Below, one piece after another: positions 5,082 to 37,049 of a stretch of DNA of 52,384 nucleotides. The notes under the pieces were generated by a model. The model saw nothing but the letters and a program-made list of their open reading frames with translations. It made no database searches and was not told the DNA's origin. Each line of letters begins with the position of its first letter. The stretch's first letter is position 1. The position numbers and the translations under genes are program-made. The stretch comes from a virus. Location: the IMG/VR virus record IMGVR_UViG_3300043410_000251, positions 1-52,384 of that record; one strand, given 5' to 3'.

Positions 5082-6876
5082 GACCTACTACGATAGAGAA
5101 TTCAGCCTGTCAAAGATAACAACTGAGGAGTACGTGCGTGATGACCGGTTTGAGATGATCGGTTTCTCATACAAGATCGATGACGAGCCCGCTCGTTGGA
5201 TCACAGGCGATGACGATTACATTCGCGCATCGTTGGAAGTCCTGCCTTGGAAGGAATCATTTGCACTGGCACACAACGCCATGTTTGATGCATCGATCCT
5301 GTCTTGGCGGTATGGCATCAAGCCGATGGCTTGGCTCGATACACTCTCGATGGCTCGGGCTGTGCGTGGTGCAGATGCCGGCAACAGTCTGGCCAAACTG
5401 GTTCAGCACTATGGCCTCGGTGCTAAAGGTGTGGAGGTGGACAACGCGATGGGTCTGCGCAAGAAGGACTTCAGCTCAGCTTCGCTTGAACGCTATGGCG
5501 AGTATTGCAAGAACGATACCGAGTTGTGTTGGTCTCTGTTTCATATCCTTGCACCCCACTTCAAGCAACCCGAACTCAAGCTGATTGACCTGACCATCCA
5601 GATGTTCTCCGATCCTGTGTTGGTGCTAGACACACCCCTGCTCGAGGCTCACCTCGAAGACGTGAAGGCGCGCAAAGAAAAGCTCATGCAAGCCATCGAG
5701 GCAAACAAAGACGAGCTGATGTCTAACCCACAGTTTGCAGAACTCTTGCGCAAGTGCGGTGTTGAGCCACCCACAAAGATCAGCATGACCACCGGCAAAG
5801 AGACCTTGGCTCTGGCCAAGAGCGATGAAGGCTTCAAGGCTTTGCTAGAACACCCTGACGAGCGCGTGCAGGCTCTGGTTGCAGCCAGGCTCGGTAACAA
5901 GTCAACGCTTGAAGAGACCCGCACCGAGCGGTTCATCAGCATCTCTAAGCGTGGTCCGATGCCTGTGCCCTTGCAGTACTACGCGGCTCACACTGGGCGG
6001 TGGGGCGGTACAGACAAGATCAACTTACAGAACCTGCCAAGCCGTGGTGCTAATGGTGGCAAGCTTAAGAAGGCGATCCGTGCCCCCAAGGGCTACGTGA
6101 TCATTGACTCAGACTCTGCGCAGATTGAGGCGCGTGTGCTTGCATGGTTCGCAGGACAGCTCGACTTGGTTGAAGCGTTCGAAAGGAAAGAAGATGTATA
6201 CAAAATCATGGCTTCTGCTATATACGGCAAGGGAGCAGAGGAAGTTACCAAAGAAGAAAGATTCGTGGGAAAAACCACGATTCTGGGATGTGGGTATGGC
6301 ATGGGGGCTCCTAAATTTGCAGCGCAACTCAAGACGTTCGGGACGGTGGTTGAAGATTCAGAAGCATCCCACATTGTCTCTACCTATCGCGCAACGTATC
6401 CTCTGATCCCTGAGTTGTGGAGGCAAGGTAACTCGGTACTGGAGGCCATCATGAACAACCAGTCTGTGCCGTTTGGTAATGGCTGTGTGGCCGTGAATGG
6501 TACAGAAGGTATCTTGATGCCCAACGGACTGCATCAGCCCTACCCAAACCTGCGCAAGGTGACCAACGAGGAAGGCCGTGAGCAGTTTGTCTATGACGCA
6601 CGACGTGGCGTGAACAAGATTTATGGTGGCAAGTTGGTGGAGAACATTTGCCAAGGCTTAGCCCGTTGTATTATTGGTGAGCAGATGATCCGTATTGCCA
6701 AGCGATACAAGACCGTGCTGACTGTGCATGATGCCGTGGCATGTATTGCCAGACAGGAAGAAGTAGACGAAGCCCTAGCCTACGTAGAAGAGTGCATGCG
6801 TTGGGTGCCAGAGTGGGCGACAGGATTGCCTCTGAACTGCGAAGCAGGGTATGGAGAAAGCTATGGAGACTGTTAA
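5053..6876 (+). CDS. Family A DNA polymerase with 3'-5' exonuclease domain
   Basis: A 607-residue T7-type replicative polymerase. The N-terminal proofreading domain begins [11 protein letters not shown] (acidic pair of Exo I), followed by [11 protein letters not shown] (Exo II) and [10 protein letters not shown] (Exo III). The polymerase domain has motif [18 protein letters not shown], the O-helix motif [17 protein letters not shown] and motif C LTVHDAV. Size is slightly below T7 gp5 (704 aa), with no obvious thioredoxin-binding insert. GGAAACC precedes the ATG. It opens the replication block and overlaps both neighbours, so it is probably translated from the same long early transcript. Confidence 0.95.
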
Positions 6877-20968: not shown

Positions 20969-22887
20969 TATTTTTTCTTCCCAAGATCGCTCCAGACACG
21001 CTCAGTATTACCGGATTTAGCGCCGTTGTCCATACCCTCAAATGGGTCACCAAGCTTCAGACGCTTGTGCAGATCACGGTAAAGTTTAGAGCCCTTTAGG
21101 ATTCTAGCCTTCTCTGCTTCAACTTGCGCACGTGCGGCGGCGGGATCCATAGCACCTAGTTTATCTTGCCCGATTAAAGAAACCGCGTTACGTTCTGCGG
21201 CATTCTCCAAAGACACAATTTGGCTGGCGTACTTAGATTCTTCACCTTTAATACCAGCTTCTTTCCTACGAGCAATATCTTCGCTGTGCATCTTGTTGTA
21301 CAGGTCTGCACGAGTAAGCCCCAGCATACCTTGCTGGAGTGCGCGGTCATCAGCAGAAGCTTGTTTCTGTCCTGCCATATAGGCAGCGATACCTTGGCTT
21401 GCGCCCTGACCAATGTTTGCACCAGCGTAACGAGATGTGCCACCCATCATGCCAAGACCGGCCTGTAAGAGCGCCAAGTACTTGTTCTGCTCTTTATCTG
21501 CAGCCATCTGGCCTCTGCGATCTTTGAGGTACGCAGCATACTCGCCAAGATAGTCACCCATGGGGTTGGTCTCAGCTGGGGCTTCAGGAGTAGGAGCAAC
21601 AGGGGCTTCTTGATCTGCTCTAGCTTCTGCGGCAGTGCTGGCCAGTCGTTTCAACTTTTCAGTTTCTGCGGCAGCGGCTGCATTGTCAGCATCTGTAATG
21701 ATGGGTTTAGCTTTCTTTATAGCTTCTTTCTTTTTCTTCTCTTCCTGACGGCGAAGAATGTCTTCGGTGTTAGAGAAGCCCTGCCCCATAGACCAGTTTT
21801 GGATAGCTTCACCAAGTTTTAATGGAGAGCCAGTGTACTCAGGTTCATCGCCTGGAACTACGCCGCCCATTGGGTCCATGTAGACACCACCGGCAAAGCC
21901 AGGTACAACTCTACCGCCCGCAGCCATGTTACGAGAATAGTTGTAGGTCTCTTTAGGCAGCTTAGACATGTCAGCGCCAGCTGCCAACCACTTGTCAGTG
22001 TTGCCTGGACCCCAGTTGTAAGCAATAGCGGCAATCTTAGGATCACCGTACTTGTCCATCATCTTCCCAAAATATTCACGACCCACACGGGCTAAATCAT
22101 CAGGATCATTTGGACGTGCAGGGCGAATACCATAACCAGGATCACGGGCGGTAGCATCCATAACCTGCATCTCACCTTTGGCGGTGCCGTACTTGGTCTG
22201 CGGGCCTTCTAGCAAATTACCGTTCTTATCGTAGCGGCGACCACCACTTTCTTTCATCATGATCTTATTGATCAGGTCACCAGCTGGCGTGCCTTCTTTG
22301 GTCAGCTTTGATATTCCTGCATCTTCAGATGGCGTGTTTTCTTTGTAAAGCTGTGTAATACCTTCAGACTTAGTTTGCTTAGGTTCGTTACCAACTTTAG
22401 AAGAAACCTCACGCTTGGTTTCTTTAACAGCAGTCTTGGCAGCACCAATAGGCAACGCACCAATACCTTCCATCTCTTCAAACTCACGGCTACTTGCTAA
22501 ACGATTACGAAGAGCACTGAACAATTTTTGCTCATCATCGCTCATTCCAAAACCGTCATCTTCTTCCTCATCATCGTCAGCTTCACCACCTTCAGCAAAT
22601 GCAACGATACCGCCTGGTGCAAAACCTTCAGTAGGCAAACCAGTAGGAAGTGCTTCAACTCCGTTAGTCTGTGCAGCCTCGCCCAAGATCTGATGTGCAA
22701 TTGGAGGCTCTCCCTCTTGCTGCATCCCACCCATCAAAGCTTCTTGCTCTTTCTGGGCTTGCATCTTTTCTTGTATCAGGGGGACGCCAATGTAAGCAGG
22801 GACCGTGCCATCTTGCACGCCCTGCGTGAGCATGTCGATAGAGAAGCTATCGGGATCAGCAATAATTTTTTGAGCAATACCGGCCAT
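20968..22887 (-). CDS. Virion protein with soluble lytic transglycosylase domain
   Basis: A 639-residue protein. Residues about 201-322 are an SLT lysozyme-like domain: MMKESGG with catalytic Glu213, GEMQVMDATA, then IAAIAYNWGPGN. The N-terminal part contains an acidic run (about 102-113) after GGIVAFAEGG, and the C-terminal part is Ala/Glu/Lys-rich with coiled-coil potential and a Gly-rich segment (GLGMMGGTSRYAGANIGQG). Such virion transglycosylases locally open peptidoglycan during DNA entry. It sits between two other ejection-type proteins with one-base junctions, so the three are probably made and packaged together. Confidence 0.85.
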   Translation of the reverse strand: MAGIAQKIIADPDSFSIDMLTQGVQDGTVPAYIGVPLIQEKMQAQKEQEALMGGMQQEGEPPIAHQILGEAAQTNGVEALPTGLPTEGFAPGGIVAFAEGGEADDDEEEDDGFGMSDDEQKLFSALRNRLASSREFEEMEGIGALPIGAAKTAVKETKREVSSKVGNEPKQTKSEGITQLYKENTPSEDAGISKLTKEGTPAGDLINKIMMKESGGRRYDKNGNLLEGPQTKYGTAKGEMQVMDATARDPGYGIRPARPNDPDDLARVGREYFGKMMDKYGDPKIAAIAYNWGPGNTDKWLAAGADMSKLPKETYNYSRNMAAGGRVVPGFAGGVYMDPMGGVVPGDEPEYTGSPLKLGEAIQNWSMGQGFSNTEDILRRQEEKKKKEAIKKAKPIITDADNAAAAAETEKLKRLASTAAEARADQEAPVAPTPEAPAETNPMGDYLGEYAAYLKDRRGQMAADKEQNKYLALLQAGLGMMGGTSRYAGANIGQGASQGIAAYMAGQKQASADDRALQQGMLGLTRADLYNKMHSEDIARRKEAGIKGEESKYASQIVSLENAAERNAVSLIGQDKLGAMDPAAARAQVEAEKARILKGSKLYRDLHKRLKLGDPFEGMDNGAKSGNTERVWSDLGKKK

Positions 22888-24131
22888 TATTTCCCCGCAT
22901 TCAAAGCGTTGCGCAATCCAAGAGTATCAATACCTTGGCCCTTTGGCTCTTTAATAGTGCCGCCCTTTTTCTTCATCAGACCATAAGCGCCAGCAGCCGC
23001 TGTACCGAGACCGGCAATCTGTGAAGTCATGCTAGGTGCAGCCTGATACTGAGTAGTAGTCATGCCAGGCACAGCGTAACCACGCAACAAAGCGTTGTAC
23101 TGGTTGTAAGCCTGCATTGGGGCTTGTTGTTGGTTGGCGTAGTTCTGGATAGCCTGATTGATGATCTGCTGTTCCTGAGCCTGTTGCTGGCCACCAACTT
23201 GTTGTTGCAGACCCAAAATACCCTGCTGTGCAGCCAACTGCTGATTGCCAATATTCGCTAAACCCGCACCTGCTTGGCCAGCCATGCCGTAGCCTTGTTG
23301 CGCTGTATTCAGACCTTGAAGACCAAGATTTGCGCCGTACTGCATATTCTGCAGGGCACCTTGATATGCGGCTTGTTGGCCTTGCAACTGGTTGTTGTTC
23401 ATCAAAGACTGCAATGAACGATTAGCTTCAGCGTTTTCAATCGCTTGACGGCTTCCACCAAAAGCACCGGCTTTTGTGGCCTGAGCATTACGCTGGGTTC
23501 TAGCAACATCTGCTTGACGTTGAGCAGCTTGATTCTGGATGTCCACCACATTCTGCATGTAAGGTGACATGAAAGAACCTACGGCGTTACTCGCATCGTA
23601 TGTGCCAGTCTTAGGATTAAACACATTACTTGTTGCGCTAAGGTAATCGCCACCCATACCCTGTGCTTGCTGTGCAGTGCCGAGGGCACCCATACCGCCC
23701 ATACCAGTCAGACCAGTAGCTTGGTTGTATTGGCCAGGCATTTGCAGATTAGCGGCGTTGTACTGAACCTGTTGTTGCAAGGGGCTGAAACCCGCTACGT
23801 AGTCCTGTGGGTTTGTGCTGTAAGGCTTGAAGGTGTCGGCTTTAACACCAGTAACATTCTTTACTGGTTGACCGGCCTCGTTCAACATGGGCTTACCAGT
23901 TTCTGGATCGATGGCAGCCTTTGTATTAAACATTTCCTCCATTGCACCGCCAAGCACGGTCTCTACTTGGGGACGTAACCAATCAGGAATGTTTGATGTG
24001 TTGGTTGTTGAAGATGTTGGGCCACCGCCACCGCCACCATAAATGCGACCATGACCACCAGGCTTAATGCTGGTTGCGCTATCGCCAAGGGGCTCACCCA
24101 TGGCATAAAGTTCTCGGCGGGAATAGCTCAT
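22887..24131 (-). CDS. Gln/Ala-rich internal virion protein candidate, 414 aa
   Basis: The N-terminus has a Gly-rich patch (GRIYGGGGGGPTSSTT), followed by IPDWLRPQVETVLGGAMEEM and a long Gln/Ala-rich helical region with MQNVVDIQNQAAQRQADVAR and KAGAFGGSRQAIENAEANRS. The AGAFGGSRQ phrase is characteristic of phage ejection or tail-associated proteins I have seen annotated as structural. The end, GAYGLMKKKGGTIKEPKGQG, carries a KKGG-type motif shared with other late proteins here. It is probably the first of three ejection proteins (analogous in place to T7 gp14). No enzymatic motif. Confidence 0.65.
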   Translation of the reverse strand: MSYSRRELYAMGEPLGDSATSIKPGGHGRIYGGGGGGPTSSTTNTSNIPDWLRPQVETVLGGAMEEMFNTKAAIDPETGKPMLNEAGQPVKNVTGVKADTFKPYSTNPQDYVAGFSPLQQQVQYNAANLQMPGQYNQATGLTGMGGMGALGTAQQAQGMGGDYLSATSNVFNPKTGTYDASNAVGSFMSPYMQNVVDIQNQAAQRQADVARTQRNAQATKAGAFGGSRQAIENAEANRSLQSLMNNNQLQGQQAAYQGALQNMQYGANLGLQGLNTAQQGYGMAGQAGAGLANIGNQQLAAQQGILGLQQQVGGQQQAQEQQIINQAIQNYANQQQAPMQAYNQYNALLRGYAVPGMTTTQYQAAPSMTSQIAGLGTAAAGAYGLMKKKGGTIKEPKGQGIDTLGLRNALNAGK

Positions 24132-24559
24132 ATTAGTACCTCAACAAGGGTATTTCTGGGTTCAAAGTCGTAACGCTTCCAGAGGCGGACAATTGAATCG
24201 CGTCCGTACCCCTGTATTTTCGTCGCACCACGCAGTTTTAACAAGGTTTTAAACTGCTCAAAAGTCTCTTGGCTTGAAATAAGTTTACCGCCAATCGCTG
24301 TCACAAACGCCACCCTGTGCAAGGGGTAGTTGATAAACGAGATTGTCGTGGCACCATGCACATTGCCTTCCTCATCAGCGGCCACAACAAGCAGCCAAGC
24401 ACCGCTAGTCAGAAAGCTTTGGATGTGATCAACTGTGTAGTTATGTGCCCAGTCTGGGAAGTCGCCACCTTTTGTCATGGCTTCTTCCAAGAAAGTCTTT
24501 ACCATAGGCCAGACTTGCTGGACATAGTTGGTATCGACATGGCGGATGGATAAACTCAT
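24128..24559 (-). CDS. GNAT-like acetyltransferase
   Basis: A 143-residue protein with the layout of a GNAT N-acetyltransferase: SLSIRHVDTNYVQQVWPMVK at the start, the strand pair WLLVVAADEEGNVHGATTIS, and a C-terminal QGYGRDSIVRLWKRYDFEP where GNAT enzymes have their alpha4 and final strands. The acetyl-CoA pyrophosphate loop (Q/R-x-x-G-x-G/A) is not well preserved, so activity is uncertain. It sits among virion genes with ATGA overlaps on both sides, a common spot for phage GNAT-like proteins whose role is unclear. Confidence 0.65.
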   Translation of the reverse strand: MSLSIRHVDTNYVQQVWPMVKTFLEEAMTKGGDFPDWAHNYTVDHIQSFLTSGAWLLVVAADEEGNVHGATTISFINYPLHRVAFVTAIGGKLISSQETFEQFKTLLKLRGATKIQGYGRDSIVRLWKRYDFEPRNTLVEVLI

Positions 24560-26355
24560 TTAGGCAGTTTCTTAATCAATTCTGAAATACCACCACCGAA
24601 AGTTCGCGCAGTTGGTGCTTCTTTGTTGAACTGACTAAATGGTGTATTCAGACCAGTAGTACGGCCATAGCGGGCGTTTTCTAAGTCAGCCGCAGTCAGG
24701 CCAACTTTACGCATTTCCGCCAATACTGCGTTCATATCTGCGCCACCGGGCTGCGCCATCTGCTTATCAGCAAGGTCACGTAAGCTCTGGTTAAGTGCAC
24801 CAATACCTTGATGTGTAAGGGCGTAGTTATACCCAGCCGAAGTTGGCAAATCACGACCATAGTTGCTTACATTAAACATCGTCAATGGATCGGCATAGTT
24901 TTGATACTGTGCTTTATAACGTCCAGCAGATGGCACGGGTGTAGTTGGTGTAACAGGTGGTACATAAGGCGCTACATATGGCGCTCTGTACGGAGCTACA
25001 TAAGGTCCAACGTAAGGTGGCACGTAAGGTGGCACGTAAGGTGGCACATAAGGATCTACATAAGGATCTACATAAGGATCTACATAAGGATCTACATAAG
25101 GATCTACATAAGGATCAACGGGAGACTTGTTATGGCTTAACAATCCTTCGCAGATATATGTATGAGCATCATCAATTGTGATACTTACAACATCACCTGA
25201 TTCGGTTTGCTCAACGCCACGAACAATCTGACCACTAATCATATCGCCAAGGCGTATGTCCTTTGCAGCAACCCAATCTCCGACTGATCTAAAGAATTTG
25301 TGCGACAGACTGCAAACAAACTCAACATTATCAAATTTAATTTTGATGCGTTCGGAACCAGAAATAATAGATACTTGTGTAACTGCATGATTACCCCAAG
25401 CTAAAGTGGTTTCGTGTTGCGTTCTAACAATATCTCCAACTTGCAATTCACCTGCAGGTTTAAGAGTGCCATCCGCCAGCAAAATACGCATGTTGGGCGC
25501 AGGGCAAGTATCTGGTGGAACAAATGGTTCTACGTAAGGATCTACATACGGATCTACAAAAGGCGCAACGTAGGGATCTACAAATGGATCTACAAATGGA
25601 TCTACAAATGGATCTACAAATGGCTCCACAAATGGTTCTATGTAGGGTTCAACATAAGGAAGCTGTATGAAAGGAGCTACATAGGGATCTTTAGGAGCTG
25701 TACCAGGAATTATGAGTTCCCCTGCATCAGGTATTTGATCAATAGGTGGACCAAAAGGTGCGACATATGGGTCGACATATGGATCTACGGGTCCAACAAA
25801 TGGATCTACAGGCCCGACATATGGATCGCCGCCAAATGGACCAGGTGTAAATGGATCCCCACCAAATGGATCTATAGGTCCAACGAATGGATCTACAGGA
25901 CCATCATACGGATCATTAATAGGCAACGGATCCCAGTTATGGGGTGTGAAATCATCAGGGCTAGTAAAAGGCGTATTCAGAATATCCCAAACACCACCAG
26001 AAGGTAGAGGTGTTGCAGCGGGGCCGTAATCTAAATCACCGGCAGCAGGAGTGTATACGGGCGGTTGCATACCGGTGAAATCCATTGTAGGATTACCGGT
26101 GATTGGGTTAATACCAGATCTAGCACCACCATCACCGCCGCTACCAGCACCGCCGTAGTCAAACCCACCAGCGTCATACCAGTCATTTGCACCTAAATCG
26201 GAATTATTAATTGTTCCTAAAGTAGAATCCCCGCCAATATCAAAACGGCGAACACCACCAGAGATGCGACCACCAGTGCCGTACTTAACTACAGGCTCAC
26301 TTGAATTTCCGGCTTCTTGCAAAGCCTCATTAAACGCTACACCGCCACCAGCCAT
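24556..26355 (-). CDS. X-Pro-Tyr/Phe-Val repeat protein with embedded Hint (intein-like) domain
   Basis: A 599-residue protein in five parts. Residues 1-140 are Gly-rich. Residues about 150-281 contain repeats of the type VDPFVGP and VDPYVDP. Residues 284-409 are a Hint domain. Residues 412-467 are a regular X-Pro-Tyr-Val array. The C-terminal 130 residues (QYQNYADPLTMFNVSNYGRD; ADLENARYGRTTGLN) resemble phage structural segments. The repeats probably adopt an extended proline-rich rod. The Hint domain has its nucleophile C284 and ends H408-N409 but is followed by Lys, so canonical splicing is unlikely and cleavage is expected instead. Its place between virion genes suggests a tail or ejection component. 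Confidence 0.8.
   Translation of the reverse strand: MAGGGVAFNEALQEAGNSSEPVVKYGTGGRISGGVRRFDIGGDSTLGTINNSDLGANDWYDAGGFDYGGAGSGGDGGARSGINPITGNPTMDFTGMQPPVYTPAAGDLDYGPAATPLPSGGVWDILNTPFTSPDDFTPHNWDPLPINDPYDGPVDPFVGPIDPFGGDPFTPGPFGGDPYVGPVDPFVGPVDPYVDPYVAPFGPPIDQIPDAGELIIPGTAPKDPYVAPFIQLPYVEPYIEPFVEPFVDPFVDPFVDPFVDPYVAPFVDPYVDPYVEPFVPPDTCPAPNMRILLADGTLKPAGELQVGDIVRTQHETTLAWGNHAVTQVSIISGSERIKIKFDNVEFVCSLSHKFFRSVGDWVAAKDIRLGDMISGQIVRGVEQTESGDVVSITIDDAHTYICEGLLSHNKSPVDPYVDPYVDPYVDPYVDPYVDPYVPPYVPPYVPPYVGPYVAPYRAPYVAPYVPPVTPTTPVPSAGRYKAQYQNYADPLTMFNVSNYGRDLPTSAGYNYALTHQGIGALNQSLRDLADKQMAQPGGADMNAVLAEMRKVGLTAADLENARYGRTTGLNTPFSQFNKEAPTARTFGGGISELIKKLPK
24955..25122 (-). repeat. 12-bp tandem repeats encoding X-Pro-Tyr-Val (C-terminal array)
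   Basis: This 168-base stretch encodes residues 412-467 of the repeat protein. On the coding strand the first units repeat GATCCTTATGTA (Asp-Pro-Tyr-Val), then units with Pro, Gly or Ala in the first place. Several consecutive units are identical in DNA, so the array is recent or actively homogenised and may vary in copy number. Confidence 0.9.
25129..25506 (-). other. Hint / bacterial-intein-like (BIL) domain within the repeat protein
   Basis: A 126-residue domain, residues 284-409. Block A: CPAPNMRILLADGTLKP with ELQVGDIV. Block B equivalent: VCSLSHKFF (S349-x-x-H352). Block F: SITIDDAHTYICEGLL. Block G: S407-H408-N409. There is no homing endonuclease, and the residue after Asn is Lys410 (then Ser411), not Cys, Ser or Thr. 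This corresponds to A-type BIL domains, which typically self-cleave rather than splice. Confidence 0.88.
25513..25908 (-). repeat. Degenerate Pro-Tyr/Phe-Val repeats (N-terminal array)
   Basis: Encodes residues 150-281. Units are more diverged than in the C-terminal array (DPFVGPIDPFGGDPF; VEPYIEPFVEPFVDPF), with a cluster of near-identical 12-base units encoding Val-Asp-Pro-Phe. The different ages of the two arrays and the Hint domain placed exactly between them suggest insertion into, or expansion around, the domain. Confidence 0.8.
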
Positions 26356-26365
26356 ATTGTTCTCC

Positions 26366-27358
26366 TTATGCAGGTAAATACTTACGTGCGTTTATCTGTT
26401 TACCTTGTTTTGGATTACCAGTACGGGCTTTGCGTACCTTGTTCATCATGCTGTAGAGCTGTTTAGCACCTGCATCGGTTGAGCCATTACCTAGATGTGA
26501 AACCACATCAGCGGGTACAACAAACTCGCCATCAGCCAAACGGGCTGGCTGCTTATTACCAATACTTGCAGGGATGCTATCAGACATTCCATCGCCGGGG
26601 CCTTTGAGCATGCGACCACCATCAGAGTAGCCACCCAAACTTGCAATACCGCCAGTGTCGCCACCACTTGCAAAGCTATAAGGGCGGTATGCACTTGGGT
26701 CAAATCTATACTGACTTAACGCACCAGTGTATGGCTTTTTCTTAGGTATACCACCACGCAATTGATCTGAGATCATGCCAAGACCAGCAATACCAGCACC
26801 GCCGGCAAGTAGTTGTTGCTTGGGGGTTAGGTTACCAAACCATTCTTTAGCACCGCTCATGATGCCTTTATTGGCCGGAGCTTGTGAGGCGTTAACCGAC
26901 ATTTGTTGCTGAGCTAAACCAGTAGGATCTGCCATGGTTGCAGCGGGGCTACCGGCAGGTACGGGGCTACCGAAAGAATCAAAAGACTGTCCAAGAGGGG
27001 CTTCACCAAACGCGCCGTATTGTGTAGCTGTAGGAGTAAAAGATTCAAACCCGGGAGTTACTGTAGCCGCCGGCGTGGCTGCCGCAGTCGTAGCAGCAGG
27101 TGCAGTATTGGCGGCTGTTGTAGTTGCTTCAGCAGCACCAGGCATAAGGCCACTAATACCAGAGGCCGCACCACCCATCAAACCACCAAGCAACGCGCCT
27201 TGCAGTGGGTCTTTACCTTGGACAAGAGATGTTCCACCACCGACAGCAGCGCCGGTCATCATGGCTTCTAAAAGAGCTGCCTCACCAACACCCCCGCCAA
27301 TGTAGAGATTACGTGTGCCATCTTTACGATAGCCGTTGAATTTATTTGGGATAAGCAT
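26366..27358 (-). CDS. Late virion-associated protein with conserved LADGEFVV tail, 330 aa
   Basis: The first 110 residues are Gly/Ala-rich and helical (AAVGGGTSLVQGKDPLQGAL; GLMGGAASGISGLMPGAA), possibly membrane-active. The middle includes LTPKQQLLAGGAGIAGLGM. The C-terminal 90 residues follow a pattern recurrent in phage late proteins: GDGMSDSIPASIGNKQPAR, LADGEFVVPADVVSHLGNGS and AKQLYSMMNKVRKARTG, ending basic. The role of this module is unknown. It sits directly before the Hint repeat protein. Confidence 0.6.
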   Translation of the reverse strand: MLIPNKFNGYRKDGTRNLYIGGGVGEAALLEAMMTGAAVGGGTSLVQGKDPLQGALLGGLMGGAASGISGLMPGAAEATTTAANTAPAATTAAATPAATVTPGFESFTPTATQYGAFGEAPLGQSFDSFGSPVPAGSPAATMADPTGLAQQQMSVNASQAPANKGIMSGAKEWFGNLTPKQQLLAGGAGIAGLGMISDQLRGGIPKKKPYTGALSQYRFDPSAYRPYSFASGGDTGGIASLGGYSDGGRMLKGPGDGMSDSIPASIGNKQPARLADGEFVVPADVVSHLGNGSTDAGAKQLYSMMNKVRKARTGNPKQGKQINARKYLPA

Positions 27359-34439: not shown

Positions 34440-36167
34440 TTAGAAGGTGATTGAACCACTGGCGGTGAATGTGTAAATCGTTCTGCCAGCATTTGTTGTA
34501 ACTGTTGGTGAACCCGTAGTAGAGGCCGCAGCTTGAGGCGCAGAAATAATCACTACACCAGAGCCGCCGTTACCGCCAAGACCTTGATTTCCTGTACCGC
34601 CACCGCCACCGCCACCGGTGTTAGCCGTACCAGCCGTACCGTTTTCAGGAGAGTTTGATCCGGGGCTTGATGAGTTGTAGCTAGAACCACCACGACCACC
34701 ACCACCAGAACCACCAGCAGCCCCAGGGTAAATAGCGAGGCCACTACCAGCACCACCATTCCAGTAGTTACCGCCACCGCCACCACCAGCATAAGTCACA
34801 GAAGAACCAGTAATAGAAGATGCAGTTCCATTGCCACCAGTACCTAATACAGAACCAGTTGCATTTGCACCAACTGCACCTGCACCACCGCCACCACCGC
34901 CTACGCCAGCACTATTACCACCACCGCCAGCATTACCTTGACCAGAAGTTCCTGCAAAACCATTGCTTGAACCACTACCCATACCACCACCACCAGAACC
35001 ACCAGTAGAGCCGCCCCCTGCCGCAGCACTTCCGCCAATACCACCGCCTGTAGCTGTGAAAGAACCAAAGACTGAATTGGAACCACTTGTACCGATAGTT
35101 GATTCGGTTGCGCCGCGCGTACCACCACCGCCCACAGTCACTGTGATGGCTGAACCTGTTGCGTAGTAGCTAGTACCAGTCAATAAACCACCAGCACCGC
35201 CACCGCCACCTACACCACCTGCACCAGCAGCACCGCCAGCAGCAACAAGGTAATCTACAGACAACAAAGGAGTTGCTGTTGTAGGAGCCAAAGTACCAGA
35301 AGATGTAAACGTGTGAATAACATAACCGTTGGCGTAGCTTAATGTGCCGCCAGTGAAGAACTGAACTGTGCCGGGGTAACGAACGATAACAATGCCTGAA
35401 CCGCCGTTTGAGCCTGTAGCGGCATTTCCACCGCCACCTCCACCGCCTGTGTTAGTTGTCCCCGCAGTACCAGAACTACCTGAAGTAGTACCCGCATCTC
35501 CACCGCCACCAACACCGCCTTTCCCTGTATTTGCGTCTGTTCCACCACTAGCCCTACCACCACCACCGCCACCTGCGTAAGTAGTTACAGTTCCAGAAAT
35601 TGATGACGCAATGCCTGCACCACCATTACCTGCATATCCATCAGGTTTAGCATTTAAGCCAACTGTACCAGCACCGCCTCCACCTCCGTGGTAATGAGGT
35701 GCGCCATCAGTTCCAATTACAGAACCACCCGCATTGCCTTGACCTGCTGTTCCTTGTGCGCCAGCAACATACGATGAATACGTATATTGACCTGCTGAAC
35801 CGCCACCAGAACCGCCTGTTCCACCTAAAGCAACAGCATTTTGGCTAGATGAATACCAAGTACCGCCCTTACCACCACCTGTAGCGGAAATACTACCAAA
35901 TACAGAACTTGAACCGCTTGTAGCTGGTGATGTTGATTCGTTTGGGCCGCCTGTTCCGCCACCACCAACTGTTACGGTATAAGAAGTTCCTGTGGCAACA
36001 GTTACGATACCAGTAAGCAAACCACCGCCAGCTCCACCAGCTCCACCAGCTCCTCCGCCACCTGCTACAACAAGGTACTCAACCCATTTAGGCGCAATAT
36101 AGCCTGACCATGCACCCTGATTGATTGCTTGGTTAACTTGCTTCAGTGTGAATAGACCTTGTGCCAT
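34440..36167 (-). CDS. Tandem two-domain glycine-rich adhesin/tail-fibre protein (paralogue 2)
   Basis: A 575-residue protein, twice the size of its neighbours because it holds two copies of the Gly-rich domain. Copy 1 runs from WVEYLVVAGGGGAGGAG to VIHTFTSSGTLAPT, and copy 2 from VDYLVAAGGAAGAGGVGG to IYTFTASGSITF. N-terminal FTLKQVNQAINQGAWSGYI resembles the N-terminus of paralogue 4 and may be the attachment part. Probable fused duplication. A role in receptor recognition is inferred. Confidence 0.7.
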   Translation of the reverse strand: MAQGLFTLKQVNQAINQGAWSGYIAPKWVEYLVVAGGGGAGGAGGAGGGLLTGIVTVATGTSYTVTVGGGGTGGPNESTSPATSGSSSVFGSISATGGGKGGTWYSSSQNAVALGGTGGSGGGSAGQYTYSSYVAGAQGTAGQGNAGGSVIGTDGAPHYHGGGGGAGTVGLNAKPDGYAGNGGAGIASSISGTVTTYAGGGGGGRASGGTDANTGKGGVGGGGDAGTTSGSSGTAGTTNTGGGGGGGNAATGSNGGSGIVIVRYPGTVQFFTGGTLSYANGYVIHTFTSSGTLAPTTATPLLSVDYLVAAGGAAGAGGVGGGGGAGGLLTGTSYYATGSAITVTVGGGGTRGATESTIGTSGSNSVFGSFTATGGGIGGSAAAGGGSTGGSGGGGMGSGSSNGFAGTSGQGNAGGGGNSAGVGGGGGGAGAVGANATGSVLGTGGNGTASSITGSSVTYAGGGGGGNYWNGGAGSGLAIYPGAAGGSGGGGRGGSSYNSSSPGSNSPENGTAGTANTGGGGGGGTGNQGLGGNGGSGVVIISAPQAAASTTGSPTVTTNAGRTIYTFTASGSITF

Positions 36168-36173
36168 AAAACC

Positions 36174-37049
36174 TCAGAATGTGATTGTGCCGGATGCAAC
36201 AAACTTATACACGCGCCATCCGCCTGTAATGTAAGTTTCTGGTGATCCAGTTGTTGACGCAGCTTGGGCCAAGTATGAGGGGTAACGAATGACAACAATA
36301 CCAGAGCCACCATTAGCACCCGCAGCGTCCAAGCCACCATTAGCATAATAATCAGTACAAGAACCGCCACCGCCACCGCCTGTATTAGCTTGTCCAGCAA
36401 ATCCGGGGCCAACTACAGAAGTTCCGCCGTTACCGCCACCGCCAGCCCCACCTAAACCGGGATAAGAGCCTGACAAATTTCTGTAAAATGAAGCGCCGCC
36501 GCCACCAGCGTAAAAAACCGCGCTACCGGTGATAGATGAGGCTAAACCCGTTCCACCACAAGCGCCGTATACTGCACCGGGGATACTAATACCAGCAGAA
36601 CCTGCGCCGCCCCCGCCGCCTCCAGAATAACCTACAGTAGTGGTGCCACCATTGTTACCTTGGCCAACCGTTCCAGTACCCGGTGAATAACCGTATCTTG
36701 CCCCACCACCGCTACCGCCACTGCCACCGCAAACACCACCACCCAAAGCAGTTATGGTTGTACTACCTGCAAGGACAGAATTCGCGCCAGCGCTACCTAC
36801 GGCAGTGCCGCTTGCACTACCAGCGCCGCCAGCACCGACTGTAACTGTAATAGAAGAGCCCGCGGTAACGGCAAAACCTGTTGCAGTTAAAAGACCACCA
36901 GCACCTCCACCGCCACCGGAATTACTGTTTGGTTGGCCGCCTTGACCGGGGCCACCACCAGCCACGACAAGGTATTCCACCGTTGTTGGAGCAGTGTTAA
37001 TGCCGTTAAAGGCGTTAGATACGTAGCCGCCTGTATATCGTTGAGACAT
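36174..37049 (-). CDS. Glycine-rich adhesin/tail-fibre protein (paralogue 1)
   Basis: A 291-residue protein, first of the adhesin array in transcription order. It starts MSQRYTGGYVSNAFNGINT, then VEYLVVAGGGPGQGGQP, ITVTVGAGGAGSAS, NSVLAGSTTITALGGG, VFYAGGGGAS, GIVVIRYPS and FVASGTITF. The same framework as the three following genes, with different loops. It lies 12 bases after a small tail-type gene. Confidence 0.7.
   Translation of the reverse strand: MSQRYTGGYVSNAFNGINTAPTTVEYLVVAGGGPGQGGQPNSNSGGGGGAGGLLTATGFAVTAGSSITVTVGAGGAGSASGTAVGSAGANSVLAGSTTITALGGGVCGGSGGSGGGARYGYSPGTGTVGQGNNGGTTTVGYSGGGGGGAGSAGISIPGAVYGACGGTGLASSITGSAVFYAGGGGASFYRNLSGSYPGLGGAGGGGNGGTSVVGPGFAGQANTGGGGGGSCTDYYANGGLDAAGANGGSGIVVIRYPSYLAQAASTTGSPETYITGGWRVYKFVASGTITF

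Follow-up and report, generated by a model that had tools for sequence, protein, structure and literature searches.

Canonical inteins require a cysteine, serine or threonine at position +1, directly after the domain. Bacterial intein-like (BIL) domains have been known for two decades; what they do in nature is still little understood. A-type BIL domains can cleave and, more rarely, splice by way of the freed α-amine (PMC4031507), and for the BIL2 domain of Tetrahymena those who solved its structure have reported splicing through isopeptide formation with a lysine side chain (PMC8616854). Here we describe a Hint domain of an uncultivated virus (IMG/VR record IMGVR_UViG_3300043410_000251), whose 52,384 bases were analysed in full and are referred to as the window. 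It is well supported that this Hint is an A-type BIL-like domain; its autoprocessing is inferred, no reaction having been observed.

The Hint domain and its host gene

The host ORF (26355-24556, minus strand) encodes a protein of 599 amino acids, composed of a conserved N-terminus, a hypervariable proline-rich middle and a conserved C-terminal region of about 115 amino acids. The Hint domain covers residues 284-409, i.e. 126 residues (25129..25506, minus strand). A preliminary description, made from the sequence of the window alone, had placed all Hint blocks in these residues, and this assignment proved exact: the domain is complete from C284 to H408-N409, with a catalytic set consisting of C284 (codon 25506-25504), S349-L-S-H352, H398, H408 and N409 (codon 25131-25129), and W361 is also present. 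A homing endonuclease can be excluded, as had been proposed, because 126 residues are too short to hold one. N409 is directly followed by K410-S-P, so that the predicted absence of Cys, Ser or Thr at +1 holds as well. The placement between two X-P-Y/F-V arrays was likewise correct, since Pro-Tyr/Phe-Val repeats lie on either side, an X-P-Y/F-V linker upstream (25507..25890) and an S-P-V-D-P-Y-V linker downstream (24955..25125; both on the minus strand and with approximate bounds). A canonical class 1 intein is ruled out by Lys410 at +1 and also by the site, which is a hypervariable linker and not a conserved functional site of an essential protein. The anatomy of an A-type BIL domain is found: a Hint fold with Cys1 in block A, histidines in blocks B and F and a C-terminal His-Asn, located in a non-conserved, variable region of the host protein (the hypervariable linker, for which Hint-free homologues exist).

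A hidden Markov model built from 24 relatives with the window Hint left out finds this Hint with an E-value of 1.9e-57 and has no second match in the six reading frames of the window, so the match is not due to chance. The best Pfam model for the isolated domain is PF07591 (PT-HINT; E 1.1e-5), although its score of 26.2 bits falls short of the cut-off, which is 27.7. Of the profiles named in the preliminary description, PF14890 (Intein_splicing) does match, but below its cut-off (E 1.7e-4 for the isolated domain), whereas neither PF13403 (Hint_2) nor, in addition, the intein models of NCBIfam gave a meaningful match to the window Hint. The AlphaFold2 model, calculated from 25 aligned sequences, is all-beta (pLDDT 92.3, pTM 0.85). 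In a Foldseek search of the PDB with this model, the top match is BUBL1 BIL2 of Tetrahymena (6y75, 6tmm; TM 0.81, E 2e-11) and the second the BIL domain of Clostridium thermocellum (2lwy; TM 0.79), followed by inteins and Hedgehog; BUBL1 BIL2 is also the best PDB match by sequence (E 2.5e-5, 19% identity). The A-type BIL reading of the preliminary description is thus well supported, since the expected anatomy is present and BIL domains make up the two kinds of solved structure that lie nearest. The BFVD database already contains uncultured phage proteins named 'Hint domain containing'.

The conserved C-terminal region of the host protein (115 amino acids; 24559..24903, minus strand) is also present in Hint-free homologues and shows 74-90% identity in nine relatives; AlphaFold is not confident on it (pLDDT 49), and no Pfam domain was found downstream of the Hint. 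Release of a toxin was considered and ruled out, as no toxin domain was identified downstream of the Hint. A neighbouring gene (26366..27358, minus strand) encodes a C-terminal GPGDGxSDSIPA... domain, which is 70% identical over 87 amino acids to a domain fused to the Hint in one relative (L019), and which is found again in several proteins that carry Hints in other phages. A second neighbour (22887..24131, minus strand) is weakly similar to DNA ejection proteins (phrog_4287, E 4.6e-4), and in another relative (L141) the Hint is followed within one polypeptide by a region similar to this ejection-like protein (match E 2e-9). Genes for a stabilization-type virion protein (phrog_3287, 6e-68), a transglycosylase (SLT domain) and a 1,926-amino-acid protein with LPD38 are located nearby, and the same late block carries major-head- and portal-like genes. 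The sequenced phage DSL-LC04 has a stabilization protein that is 40% identical and a DNA transfer protein annotated in the corresponding stretch. Judged by these similarities, it is supported that the host gene belongs to a late particle/DNA-ejection cluster of a podovirus-like phage. Because of the gene order and the fusions in L141 and L019, there are good reasons to regard the product as part of the virion or as ejected from it, and for the 'virion-type' gene of the preliminary description the backing comes from gene order and from the host proteins of the relatives, not from proteomics.

Two further observations concern the surroundings. The 143-amino-acid gene at 24128-24559 has no Pfam match and is acetyltransferase-like by eye only; it is 79-90% identical in the closer sister phages, and the gene preceding it is hypervariable. 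At 34440-37049, two adjacent genes (575 and 291 amino acids) both match phrog_2295 and Gly_rich_2, as if a fibre-type gene had been duplicated in tandem.

Relatives, conservation and exchange of the module

Viral contigs, bacterial genomes and annotated phages were scanned for relatives, and 71 distinct Hint domains were found, carried by uncultivated phages and a few Sphingomonadaceae genomes. Counts of catalytic residues refer to these 71, counts of lysines and C-termini to the 69 Hints that end in HN. Close members occur in only 3 of 299 Sphingomonadaceae genomes, the sole close relative among the annotated phages (50,697 records) is MT835519 from human faeces, and a scan of a genome collection with a narrow peptide pattern matched only two genomes. 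The family signature is TxHExTxxWG ... DAHTYI ... LSHN(x)K.

The host regions upstream of the Hint form about 18 groups whose mutual similarity is undetectable at the threshold used. Annotated hosts match tail or large structural families, namely phrog_358 (large proteins of unknown function) and the tail proteins phrog_376 and phrog_1101, and a further host type is a J-like central tail fibre (phrog_31, phrog_5616). Over the 20 positions that precede Cys1, Gly and Pro account for 23% each, compared with 10% and 6% elsewhere in the hosts. The Hint stands at the protein start in L039 and L154-L156 and within 15 residues of the C-terminus in 34 of 69 cases (e.g. HN-IKQIL-stop, HN-LKENPE-stop); there are two Hints in the L061 protein and four in the L027-L029 proteins. 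As far as can be judged from these matches, the Hint is not a one-off but a module widespread among phages, mostly in predicted tail-type proteins. The arrangement of four Hints in series in one phage protein extends over L027-L033 (e.g. L029:2331-5846); in such a protein the first copy is without the terminal HN (SRTVK), the second without Cys1, and the last two are intact. In L108, two separate genes of one contig each have a terminal Hint with HN-VK, after which only a few residues follow.

The catalytic residues are highly conserved: Cys1 is present in 66 of the 71 relatives, the histidines of blocks B and F in 68 each, and the terminal HN in 69. Block B is SxxH in the window as against the common TxxH; in the relatives, its first position is Ser in 46, Thr in 24 and Ala in 1 (n=71). 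Ratios of dN/dS range from 0.03 to 0.39, mostly near 0.1, across all measurable close pairs of relatives; the Hint is under purifying selection in the relatives. A catalytically idle Hint fold that merely acts as a structural spacer or adhesion domain would fit the decayed copies in four-Hint proteins and the frequent location at the ends of tail proteins, but is made improbable by the finding that all five catalytic positions are intact in 63 of the 71 relatives, many of which are just 30-50% identical. The losses that did occur are not all alike. The N-terminal Hints of L154-L156 have lost both Cys1 and the block B histidine and kept HN-K, a pattern that makes sense, as the missing residues are those of the N-terminal reaction. 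Two copies in the four-Hint proteins (L027-L029 group) have lost Cys1 or HN, and therefore some copies need no full reaction.

Sister phages, in which the neighbouring 143-amino-acid gene is 86-90% identical, keep the same host gene without a Hint. Their homologues have a similar N-terminus, a C-terminal region that is 74-90% identical and differing low-complexity middles, so far as aligned sequences tell a strikingly hypervariable linker between conserved ends. In L079, L083 and L087 (gene ending near 6004), which are Hint-free, Gly-, Thr- or Pro-rich repeats are found instead of the Pro-Tyr-Val array. Hint-free homologues of the J-like fibre (L198, L201, L202, L204) are 47-60% identical to the Hint-bearing Sphingopyxis fibre and terminate in a short Gly/Pro tail. 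Since the host gene occurs without it both in the sister phages and among the tail-fibre homologues, the Hint is a presence/absence module. When the Hint tree is compared with host families 3 and 4, at least two and at least three changes, respectively, are required at well-supported branches. From this mismatch and the Hint-free homologues it follows that the Hint is gained and lost where linkers tolerate it and passes from one particle protein to another, without an endonuclease of its own.

The same observations, namely presence or absence in otherwise similar genes, insertion in tolerant linkers and exchange among hosts, would be expected of a selfish, self-excising passenger that persists because its removal spares the host. 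This is a serious possibility, albeit one we do not favour, and it is compatible with the explanation preferred below; the Hint has neither a homing endonuclease nor another mobility gene, however, and it shows a strong bias to tail or particle-type proteins instead of residing in tolerant linkers in general. Pure autocleavage, by which the Hint would split the host protein in two, the pieces remaining in the particle or separating upon infection without any ligation, is conceivable to a similar degree. The A-type BIL domains studied so far yield mainly cleavage products, and the proteins encoded at the host locus are much shorter in some of the sister phages, for which reason the linker seems tolerant. 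Half of the family, however, lies within 15 residues of the C-terminus with almost nothing to release and yet keeps HN(x)K.

The lysine at +1/+2 and the inferred reaction

The preliminary description treated Lys410 (25126..25128, minus strand) only as evidence for a missing nucleophile at +1. That part stands, with none of the 69 Hints having Cys, Ser or Thr there, but the residue is more than this: a lysine is found at +1 or +2 in 67 of the 69, the remaining two having Arg-Arg, compared with 9 lysines at 568 positions (1.6%) from +3 to +12, and Lys410 is proposed to be part of the module. Both lysine codons are in use (AAG 35, AAA 29), and the Hint tree implies about five shifts of the lysine between +1 and +2, throughout which it was retained; it therefore seems to be the residue, and not the DNA or the exact place, that is constrained. 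The lysine appears to travel with the Hint module and not with the host. It is not confined to phages or virion proteins, because 9 of 16 alphaproteobacterial pretoxin (PT-HINT) Hints taken as a control (manual count) also carry it at +1 or +2.

In the reaction that can be inferred, the upstream chain would be transferred after translation to Cys284 as a thioester with the assistance of His352, and Asn409 would cyclise with the assistance of His408, by which the downstream chain is freed. The upstream chain could then either be hydrolysed, resulting in cleavage, or be rejoined to the downstream chain at Lys410, via the α-amine or, as in Tetrahymena BIL2, via the lysine side chain. The Hint would depart and leave the host with a normal linker, rejoined or cut, so that the protein may come to resemble that of the Hint-free sister phages. 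Autoprocessing as such is likely, although no biochemistry or proteomics backs it; catalysis, its timing, the ratio of cleavage to ligation and any benefit for the phage are inferences. Whether some joining of chains occurs or only cutting is nearly evenly balanced. More speculative, plausible but tentative, is the proposal that the +1/+2 lysine of the phage BIL modules itself takes the upstream thioester to give an isopeptide-joined (branched) or re-tailed virion protein; this chemistry is unproven, and the alternation between +1 and +2 fits a side-chain nucleophile less well, as side chains point differently in an extended strand.

A thioester at Cys1 could also attack amines of an adjacent subunit or of the host cell's surface and so anchor the tail tip covalently. 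Many Hints do lie at the end of tail-tip proteins, the J-like fibre being an example, and BIL2 is able to hand its upstream domain to other proteins (PMC8616854); the conserved HN and the adjacent lysine suggest an internal acceptor, however, and nothing ties the Hint to any receptor, so that this role is highly unlikely. Our preferred explanation, which we consider probable, is that of a mobile, endonuclease-free, autocatalytic A-type-BIL-like module in a dispensable linker of a protein of the particle/DNA-ejection cluster. Its fold, complete catalytic set, purifying selection in the relatives, presence/absence, spread over unrelated hosts and near-invariant lysine are computed results, its catalysis an inference.

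About 70 members, their Hint-free counterparts and natural loss variants lacking Cys1 or HN constitute a compact and directly testable system, in which it can be asked if the lysine accepts the upstream chain and if processing is important for particle assembly or DNA entry. If both are the case, phages would have an enzyme-free route to finish or link tail proteins, and the modules would be a source of compact ligation tools without Cys, Ser or Thr at the junction; if lysine acts as proposed, protein splicing at lysine would be a routine step of phage-tail maturation requiring neither enzymes nor ATP.

Comparison with known systems

The fold, the general chemistry and the Hint annotation in uncultured phage proteins are already known; no study of these phage Hints was found. 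In the literature searched, which covered few subscription journals and is weak evidence of absence, there was no account of phage virion proteins being matured by a BIL/Hint domain, nor of the phage-wide family, its tail-protein habit, the presence/absence pattern or the near-invariant lysine. Apparently undescribed are thus the roughly 70 distinct phage-centred relatives in about 18 unrelated hosts, together with this pattern and this lysine.

The closest fold to the window Hint is that of BUBL1 BIL2 of Tetrahymena thermophila, which is eukaryotic, located between ubiquitin-like domains and activated by zinc, whereas the window Hint resides in a phage particle-type protein. The zinc ligands H48 and H125 of BIL2 are apparently not conserved, as the aligned window positions are not His (one alignment, by eye). 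PT-HINT domains (PF07591) resemble the phage family in that many bacterial members share HN(x)K, but the window Hint remains below the curated cut-off, and in place of the C-terminal toxin domain of PT-HINT proteins it is followed by a repeat linker and the conserved 115-amino-acid region; in about half of the phage members hardly any sequence follows the Hint. Phage inteins of terminases and portals (e.g. TerL of Corynebacterium phage Zion) have the same fold and 25-32% identity, but are located in conserved enzymes or portals, unlike the present Hints in variable linkers. An analogous architecture, with fold and chemistry that are unrelated as far as known, is the S74 intramolecular chaperone of tail spikes, a self-removing C-terminal domain of phage fibres. 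A-type BIL domains (e.g. 2lwy) share with the window Hint the fold, the HN end, the lack of a +1 nucleophile and the variable host regions; they have been described in bacterial proteins, whereas the present family is phage-borne and has a signature of its own.
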